From NCBI GenBank assembly GCA_021776785.1, contig JAJFFF010000008.1, forward strand, positions 1 to 64,000: DNA of 64,000 nt, in the 5' to 3' direction. The notes below the pieces were generated by a model. The model was not told the origin of the DNA and did no database searches. It saw only the letters and a program-made list of their open reading frames with translations. This document shows positions 15,627 to 20,289 of this stretch, in pieces (positions within the stretch are counted from its first letter, which is position 1; the number at the start of each line of letters is the position of its first letter). The DNA is from Planctomycetota bacterium (GTDB lineage: Bacteria; Planctomycetota; PLA2). Position numbers and translations under genes: made by a program.

Positions 15627-16883
15627 GTGCGCATCTCCATTCTTTGTGCTGTTTTTGTGACCACAACCGCGGTCCACACCGCACCGGCAGACGACGCCGT
15701 GCTCAATCGCGCCACGTTAGACGCCTGGATCGATCGCATTACGCCGCCCGAAGACGAACGCATCGACGAGACGATCCCCTGGAGGACGAGTTTTCACCAG
15801 GGCATGGCCGCCGCTGCCGCCGCACGCAAGCCGCTGCTTTTGTGGGTCATGAACGGCCATCCGCTCGGGTGTACGTGAAACAACGGCGTGGCGGGCCGGC
15901 GGTCCGTCTGGGGGGATGAGCGCGTGCGCGAACTCGCGCAACAGTTTGTGTGCGCGGCCGACGAGACGTGGCGCCTTCAAAACGGGAAGGATGCGGAGTG
16001 CCGCTTTTTCCAAAAGATCGCGAGCCAAGGGCACTATCAAGCGAAGGGCGGAACGCGACAGGGCTACTACGCGATCGCACCCAACGGAACGTTGCTCGCG
16101 TCCGCGAACTCGCGCAGCGGCGAAGCGATCCTCGCGATGATGAAGAGAGCGCTCGTTGCCTGGGATGCACTCGATGCCACACGCCACGTCCTGCCCGCGG
16201 ACACGCCGTTCGAACCGGAACACCGCTGGGAGGCGAGCTATCCGACCGGCGGCCTTGTGTTCATGCGCTATGTGCGCGACATCTTAGGAAGCGACCGGCG
16301 CTGGAACCGCGATTACGCATGGTTTACCCGGGACGAAGTGAAAGAACTTACGTCCCTCCCACCGCGACCGGGAGCAACGCGCGATTGGCCGCAACGACTG
16401 GCCGCGCGTTTGGCGCGGTTTCACTTAGTCGACAATGTACGCGGACAGACTCTACCGTTTGCAGCAGGCGAAATTGAACGCGCCGACCTGCGCTTTACGG
16501 TCGTACGCGCAACCGACGACGCGATCGACTTGGAGCTCACCGGGAAGACGCACGCCGTCGCCAAGGGCCCGTGGCTGCTCGGCAAGACCGACTGGACGCC
16601 GACCGAGGACTTCCCGCGCACGATGACGACGACGATCTTTGGACGCGCCCGTTTCAATCGGCGCAGCCAACGGTTCGTAACGTTTTCCTTCGCGGCGCTC
16701 GGCACCCGTACCGGACGGACGGGCAACGACGGACGCAACAAAGAGTCACCCGAGCCGACCGCGATGGGATTCGCATTTTCGCTGGCGCGCGGCGACGTTA
16801 CGCTCGCCCCGACGTTTTTGGAGTTTTATCCCGACAAGTGGGTGAAGCGACCGCACGATCTGGGGTACGGCGAACACAAGTGA
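15627..16883 (+). CDS. Secreted thioredoxin-like selenoprotein candidate (C-T-U motif)
   Basis: Annotated as one 418-residue gene read through TGA 15876-15878 as selenocysteine (U84). Before the TGA there are a signal peptide (MRISILCAVFVTTTAVHTA) and a thioredoxin-like approach strand (RKPLLLWVMNGHPLGCT). After it the same frame continues for 334 codons without another stop, starting NNGVAGRRSVWGDERV and keeping helix/strand character typical of this fold. Cys82-Thr83-Sec84 would form the redox centre. An 8-bp hairpin with loop GGC follows at 15890-15908. A nonsense mutation is the alternative; the intact downstream frame and hairpin argue against it. An envelope redox role is inferred. The HEAT gene follows after 42 bp. 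Confidence 0.75.
15890..15908 (+). promoter_or_regulatory. Predicted bacterial SECIS hairpin for U84
   Basis: An eight-pair stem (15890-15897 with 15901-15908, two G-U pairs) and the loop GGC. The loop begins 19 nt after the TGA, within the usual bacterial SECIS spacing, and G is the first loop base. Confidence 0.6.
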
Positions 16884-19251: not shown

Positions 19252-20289
19252 ATGGTTCGCACACTTGTTCTCCTCGGCGCAGCGACGGTACTGGCCTGGG
19301 CGGGCCGCACGGAGCGCTCGCAAAACCCCGTCGAACTGGGAACGGTCTCCTGGTATCGCAACTACGACGAGGCGCGTGCGATCGCGAAGAAAACGGACCG
19401 CGACCTTTTTGTGCTGTTTCAAGAGGTGCCCGGCTGAAGCACGTGTCGCAACTTCGGCACTCAAGTCTTGAGTGACCCGCTCCTTGTCGATGCGATCGAA
19501 GACCAGTTCGTACCGCTTTGCATCTACAACAACGTCAAGGGTGAGGACGCGCGGATCCTCAAAAAGTTCAAGGAGCCGTCGTGGAACAACCCCGTGACGC
19601 GCATCCTGCGCGCCAGCGACGGAGCGACCGATCGCATGGCGCCGAATCGCACCGGCTGGAGCGTGGCGGCCGTGGCGCGGCAAATGACGGCCGCGCTCAA
19701 GAAACGCGGACGCGCTGTCCCGGGCTACTTGGCGCTCCTCACGGCCGAAGCCAACGCCACGCCACAAAAGACCGAGAACGCCGTGTTCGGCATGACGTGA
19801 TACTGGGTCGGCGAGGTCGAGTTCGGCCTCCTTCCCGGTGTCTTGGCCACGCGGCCCGGCTGGATCGATCGCGCCGAAGTCGTGCGCGTCACGTTTGATC
19901 CGTCCGTGGTCACGTACGAGTCCTTGGTGCAGCACGCTAAAAAGCGGGGATGCATCAGTCCGGTGTTTACGCGCAACGATGCGCAGCAGCGCCTCGCTCA
20001 GTCGATTGTCGCCACTGCGGCGCGACGCAGCGACAAAGACATCCGCTGGGTCAAAGACAACAAGTATCAACTCAGCCGCACGCCGCTCCGGTTTGTGCCC
20101 ATGACGCGCGCGCAGGCCGCTCGGATCAACGCCGACGTATCTCGTGCCGACGAGTGGCTGTCTCCCCTGCAGAAGCGACTACTCAAACAGGTTCGCGCGC
20201 ACCCCACGGCGGCGTGGCCGATTCAGATCGGCGTGGACCTGCCGCGCGCTCTGAAGACCACGCACGCGATCGCATCTCGCCTGAAGTAG
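19252..20289 (+). CDS. Two-Sec selenoprotein: VPGU thioredoxin-like plus MsrA-like domain
   Basis: One 345-residue protein if TGA 19435-19437 (U62) and TGA 19798-19800 (U183) are selenocysteine. Three open segments lie in the same frame. The N-terminus is a signal peptide. The first domain has LFVLFQEVPG-U-STC, a UxxC redox motif (U62, C65) followed by VLSDPLLVDAIEDQFVPL. It matches what I know as the VPGUxxT family of thioredoxin-like (seleno)proteins. The second domain reads VFGMT-U-YWVGEVEFG, then LLPGVLATRPGW and AEVVRVTFDP. This parallels MsrA, whose catalytic Cys lies in GCFWG and which repairs methionine sulfoxide. Hairpins follow both TGAs at SECIS distance. Probably an envelope reductase. 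Confidence 0.85.
19458..19474 (+). promoter_or_regulatory. Predicted SECIS hairpin for U62
   Basis: A 6-bp stem, CACTCA / TGAGTG, with loop AGTCT. The loop starts 26 nt after the TGA and its second base is G. Confidence 0.6.
19813..19830 (+). promoter_or_regulatory. Predicted SECIS hairpin for U183
   Basis: A six-pair stem, GAGGTC / GGCCTC (one G-U), with loop GAGTTC. The loop starts 18 nt after the TGA and its first base is G. Confidence 0.6.

Follow-up and report, generated by a model that had tools for sequence, protein, structure and literature searches.

A VPGUxxT type 2 (seleno)protein with two in-frame TGA codons, one in a thioredoxin-like UxxC motif and one in an MsrA-derived active site

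NF041383 is the NCBIfam family of VPGUxxT thioredoxin-like proteins (OS_HP5), for which the motif VPGU and one selenocysteine (Sec) are listed (PMC13188914). No function was found for this named family in the literature covered. The nearest precedent, and the best studied fusion of thioredoxin (Trx) and Msr domains, is PilB, in which MsrB is recycled by the Trx domain of the same molecule, and MsrA only by that of another molecule (PMC6210582). In the selenoprotein MsrA of C. oremlandii (CoMsrA), the C-terminal helical domain is essential for activity (PMC4333827), and the roles of Tyr47, Glu55, Tyr90, His137, and Tyr140 have been described (PMC4333827, PMC4479559).

The gene described here lies in the window, which is the whole stretch of 64,000 nucleotides that was analyzed. 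Its frame and the two TGA codons are as follows:

19252..20289, + strand: VPGUxxT type 2 (seleno)protein gene; 345 amino acids, two in-frame TGA codons, TAG stop; NF041383 matches with 355 bits over residues 28-310.
19435..19437, + strand: TGA 1, Sec62 in the motif VPG-U-STC; 87 of the 112 homologous genes encode Cys at site 1, and 24 encode Sec.
19798..19800, + strand: TGA 2, Sec183 in the motif GMT-U-YW, at the MsrA catalytic Cys and aligned with GCFW/GUFW of MsrA; 97 of the 112 homologous genes encode Cys at site 2, and 15 encode Sec.

The frame of 345 codons followed by TAG and the coordinates of both TGAs agree exactly with those of an earlier note on this DNA, and the motifs EVPG-U-STC and GMT-U-YWVGE match its description. 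The note had likened the first motif to the VPGUxxT (seleno)protein family. The protein can now be formally assigned to this family, as the NF041383 score lies above the cut-off of 275 bits, the match covers positions 1-286 of the 287 in the model, and the VPG-U/C motif is present as EVPG-U at residues 58-62. The family is thus already named, and a second Sec in an MsrA-derived site is apparently undocumented, judged by the review PMC13188914; primary papers may mention it earlier.

Two Sec residues in one protein, as had been proposed, are supported because both TGAs align with Cys of homologues. The nearest full-length homologues (57-42% identity) have a TGA or a Cys codon at both positions and read on past each. 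A search of 99 related genomes returned full-length homologues with two, one, or zero in-frame TGAs. When these were read in frame, the TGAs lay exactly at the two motif positions, and the TGA-free homologues had Cys there. No homologue ended at either TGA; the similarity runs past both. Four pairs of double-TGA genes gave dN/dS values of 0.07-0.42 before, between, and after the TGAs, with dS near saturation in one pair. Computation confirms the double-TGA observation as real and shows that the frame continues through both codons, with Sec predicted at each.

Each TGA is followed by a hairpin:

19456..19477, + strand: SECIS-like hairpin after TGA 1, loop GTC with G first; synonymous-shuffle test, and covariation score of 0.299 against 0.206 for shuffled columns.
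19813..19830, + strand: SECIS-like hairpin after TGA 2, GAGGUCG-AGUU-CGGCCUC; synonymous-shuffle test, 92% of cells paired, and four pairs with compensatory change.

The stems span nt 22-43 and 16-33 from the T of the respective TGA, with the loops GTC and AGTT, and the positions given earlier were right to within a few bases. With 200 synonymous-codon shuffles per gene, the hairpins of the TGA genes exceeded what the protein sequence requires, with a combined p of 2e-11 at site 1 (24 genes) and 5e-6 at site 2 (14 genes). The Cys-coding homologues (88 at site 1, 97 at site 2) gave no hairpin excess with such shuffles (p 0.99 and 0.51). For the window gene alone, p was 0.025 at site 1; at site 2, it was 0.17 in a narrow and 0.02 in a wide stretch. 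Compensatory changes in both stems were above column shuffles and slid registers, controls which only partly remove relatedness. With dinucleotide shuffles of the full 51 nt, only site 2 showed a difference. When the whole 48-60 nt after each TGA were folded, the site 1 signal vanished in the wide stretches, and we therefore claim only a local hairpin. A single consensus stem failed to fit all members with Sec at site 1 and Cys at site 2, and these members seem to have their hairpins in different registers. On the evidence of the Sec/Cys alignment, the hairpin shuffle test, and dN/dS, we reject a chance read-through of two stops.

The same genome encodes tRNA-Sec (70.8 bits) and SelB, with SelA (495 bits) about 0.1 kb downstream of SelB. 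Of the 33 genomes tested, 28 had SelA above the cut-off, among them seven of the eight with C/C members; the organisms with C/C members could therefore use Sec but do not at these sites. Across the 112 homologous genes, the states at the two motif positions (site 1/site 2) are U/U 15, U/C 9, C/C 87, G/C 1, and C/U 0. The named relatives belong, by the taxonomy used, to Bacteroidota (mostly Saprospiraceae), Planctomycetota, Thermodesulfobacteriota, Myxococcota, Ignavibacteriota, and Pseudomonadota. Most C/C rows stem from a scan whose patterns required Cys codons, which biases its U/C ratio. Hence, we give frequencies only for the window's phylum, in which 392 genomes were searched with an HMM and 31 full-length members scored above the cut-off. 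Both TGAs were present in 15 of these, one in 8, and none in 8. Sec at site 2 never occurred without Sec at site 1 (15 of 23 Sec-first members vs 0 of 8 Cys-first members, Fisher p 0.002, uncorrected for relatedness). On the tree, there are about three changes of the site 2 state, so that this dependence rests on few independent events.

The domain architecture of the protein is as follows:

19252..19323, + strand: probable signal peptide, about residues 1-24, with the hydrophobic stretch LVLLGAATVLAWAG, identified by eye; similar hydrophobic N-termini in 13 of 13 homologues read, one of them lipoprotein-like (LPAC).
19342..19716, + strand: Thioredoxin_7 / DsbD-DsbH-like domain, residues 31-155; Pfam PF13899 with 37.5 bits; the model aligns to DsbH 2ju5, the DsbD C-terminal domain 2fwe, and 2lst with Z 13-15.
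19768..20076, + strand: MsrA-like catalytic domain with shortened loops, residues 173-275; PF01625 with 26.4 bits, solved MsrAs with E 1e-10, Z 12-14 to MsrA structures.
20077..20199, + strand: C-terminal helical module, residues 276-316, the counterpart of the helical domain in CoMsrA; 4lwm/4lwj align over 173-316 with Z of about 14.

Given the probable signal peptide, the protein is likely exported. The AlphaFold2 model, built from an alignment of 105 members, has a pLDDT of 92.4 and a pTM of 0.89. The proposed relationship of the second half to MsrA was borne out by profile and structure searches. The Pfam PMSR match (PF01625) falls in two short stretches and exceeds the gathering score of 23.7, and profile searches reach solved MsrAs. 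In the structure search, residues 173-316 matched best to CoMsrA (23% identity), the helical C-terminal domain included, while most other MsrA structures align over about 170-275. The msrA equivalog TIGR00401 was missed, with 24.2 bits vs a cut-off of 108.1 bits.

Besides Sec183, two residues align with active-site residues of MsrA:

19876..19878, + strand: Glu209, by alignment the equivalent of the MsrA proton donor (Glu94 in E. coli, Glu55 in C. oremlandii; role from PMC4479559 and PMC6210582); invariant in 112 of 112.
19951..19953, + strand: Cys234, by alignment at the place of the active-site Tyr90 (C. oremlandii) or Tyr134 (E. coli), and the proposed resolving Cys; Cys in 83 of 112.

Sec/Cys183 and Trp185 are invariant as well, and Y184 is Phe in 98 of 112 members. 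Two MsrAs are encoded elsewhere in the genome, a canonical Cys MsrA (L153) and a separate Sec MsrA of the C. oremlandii 1-Cys type with the motif GUFWG (L154, contig C39:412832-413239, - strand). In the alignment with these two MsrAs, the loop bearing Tyr47 is deleted and Cys234 takes the place of Tyr90 (Tyr82 and Tyr134 are the E. coli counterparts). Two of the three hydrophilic pocket residues are gone, and His137 is not conserved in the family. The aligned sequences indicate a pocket that is related to the MsrA pocket, not identical to it.

MsrA is the commonest family among the neighboring genes. Of about 80 named loci, 6 have an MsrA gene directly beside the fusion gene and on the same strand. 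At least three arrangements occur: the MsrA gene lies upstream of the fusion in four related Saprospiraceae loci and downstream of it in a fifth, and in a groundwater bacterium the downstream neighbor is an MsrA-MsrB fusion. No single operon is conserved across the loci, and the other phylum loci retrieved with the full-length fusion had no MsrA neighbor within 1.5 kb flanks. In the window, the neighbors (a HEAT-repeat protein, a SnoaL-like protein, and a symporter) gave no functional link. On the Sphingomonas paucimobilis plasmid NZ_CP065714.1, a gene annotated with the family name (L165) adjoins a redoxin gene, a sulfite oxidase-like oxidoreductase lies just downstream, and msrA is about 6 kb away; this may be an oxidative-repair cluster.

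A second selenoprotein candidate was noticed two genes upstream in the window (15627-16883, + strand; TGA at 15876-15878, motif MNGHPLGCTUNNGV). Relatives were matched in 19 of 59 genomes, and nearly every long one has an in-frame TGA, usually exactly one. The candidate has no convincing Pfam or NCBIfam match. The N-terminal part of its model is thioredoxin-like (AGR3-like, with a Foldseek probability of 0.99 but an E of 0.016), and the C-terminal part is rich in beta structure. The candidate may represent an undescribed family in which Cys forms are nearly absent.

We lean slightly towards reading the fusion as an exported sulfoxide reductase with its own fused selenothioredoxin, with Sec at two active sites and a C-terminal half derived from a 1-Cys MsrA of the C. 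oremlandii type. The C-terminal half would most likely still reduce sulfoxide, probably methionine-S-sulfoxide in exported proteins. Sec183 would attack the sulfoxide with Glu209 as the acid, leading to a selenenic acid, and Cys234, in the position of the active-site Tyr of MsrA, would then form a Se-S bond. This bond would be reduced by the fused thioredoxin domain (Sec62-x-x-Cys65), and Sec62/Cys65 would be recharged by an outside envelope reductant (DsbD-like). The substrate, Cys234 as the resolving residue, and transfer within one molecule are steps that we infer. This reading is favored by the Sec/Cys-interchangeable TGAs, the selected hairpins, the Sec machinery, the constraint, the confident model, and the invariant Sec/Cys183, Trp185, and Glu209, as well as by Cys234 at the place of the active-site Tyr, the coupling of C65 and C234 (see below), and the linkage to MsrA genes. 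It is weakened by the reduced MsrA pocket, the missed msrA equivalog, the 19 members in which C234 is absent, the small number of C65 losses (two), and the between-molecule precedent of PilB.

Both Sec residues could be real while the MsrA-like half no longer acts on methionine sulfoxide; its opened pocket, with Sec/Cys, Glu, and Cys234, would then reduce a different oxidized substrate (a peroxide, another S-oxide, or a protein sulfenic acid) and draw its electrons from the thioredoxin domain. The loss of the Tyr47 loop and Tyr90 and the poor fit to the msrA equivalog are in line with this, and methionine-S-sulfoxide repair is already covered in the genome by the canonical Cys MsrA and the full 1-Cys Sec MsrA. 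However, the invariant Trp185 and Glu209 together with an aromatic residue at 184 are the methyl-pocket and acid residues of MsrA, and MsrA or MsrAB genes adjoin several loci. Taking both sides, we consider a changed substrate unlikely, if by no means far-fetched.

Evidence on how the two halves of the proposed sulfoxide reductase work together comes from the partner of Sec62 in the UxxC motif:

19444..19446, + strand: Cys65, the UxxC partner; Cys in 101 of 112, and where Cys/Sec62 is intact, lost only along with C234.

Ten members have CxxS/A/V for CxxC, and in all ten, Val replaces C234. By mutual information, C65 has its strongest non-adjacent partner in C234 and vice versa, and the pair ranks 153 of 23,046 interdomain pairs. 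On the tree, C65 was lost in two independent events only, once in a Thermodesulfobacteriota/Myxococcota set and again in L116, a Myxococcales protein, both times along with C234. With only two independent losses, the link between C65 and C234 cannot reach significance on the tree, and the joint loss is no more than suggestive of a coupling. An internal hand-over of electrons, which the earlier note had raised, is plausible from this co-loss and from the nesting of site 2 Sec in site 1 Sec, each with few independent events. The more specific proposal is a single-chain selenium relay, in which the fused selenothioredoxin would pass electrons to the Sec of a remodeled MsrA site, a resolving Cys would replace Tyr, and Sec at site 2 would be favored only after Sec at site 1. 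We put it forward tentatively, as it falls short of an even chance.

Alternatively, there may be no electron exchange within the molecule, and the thioredoxin domain would serve other partners or, as described for PilB (PMC6210582), reduce the MsrA-like domain of another molecule. Such a division of labor would suit the 19 members that lack C234 and keep the Cys/Sec-x-x-Cys pair, including 4 of the 15 double-Sec genes (L018, L136, L138, and L145). It would also suit L020 (genome G050), in which the thioredoxin active site is degenerate and Cys183 and Cys234 of the MsrA-like site are intact. Against it stand the joint loss of C65 and C234 and the restriction of site 2 Sec to members with site 1 Sec, and we regard it as unlikely. 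That one TGA, likeliest TGA 2, is a regulated or genuine stop, giving a 182-residue thioredoxin as the main product and the remainder only with plentiful selenium, is very improbable: bacterial UGA recoding is incomplete (30-40% in vivo, as reported in PMC4513850) and the N-terminal part by itself makes up a complete thioredoxin domain, but full-length Cys-coding homologues exist, and strong constraint and a hairpin follow TGA 2.

If its second half is taken as an MsrA of the C. oremlandii type and the second TGA as Sec, the named family would gain a testable activity. The UU, UC, and CC members form a natural system for the contribution of selenium at each step of a redox relay. If annotated on the expectation of a single Sec, about half of the full-length members sampled in the phylum would be truncated or misread.

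Compared with NF041383 as listed (PMC13188914), the protein has the same whole-length match and VPG-U motif. The listing gives one Sec and does not mention MsrA, whereas here an MsrA-like site contains a second Sec, and the first motif reads UxxC instead of UxxT. Two Sec per chain are also found in the double selenoproteins MduS, MbdU, UxxU Prx-like, and FrhD/VhuD (PMC13188914, Table 1), but none of the double selenoproteins in that table joins a thioredoxin UxxC to an MsrA-like Sec site. With Neisseria PilB (Trx-like + MsrA + MsrB), it has in common a Trx-like domain, exported and fused to MsrA, and the logic of a built-in reductant (PMC6210582). In contrast to the window protein, PilB has no described Sec, a thioredoxin subtype of the TlpA fold, an MsrB domain, and an MsrA that is recycled between molecules. 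With the 1-Cys selenoprotein MsrA of C. oremlandii (4lwm/4u66), it has in common the catalytic Sec, the Trp, the Glu, and the C-terminal helical domain (PMC4333827, PMC4479559). Here, however, the Tyr loop is deleted, a Cys stands at the place of Tyr90, and an exported thioredoxin is fused, whereas CoMsrA uses a separate glutaredoxin.
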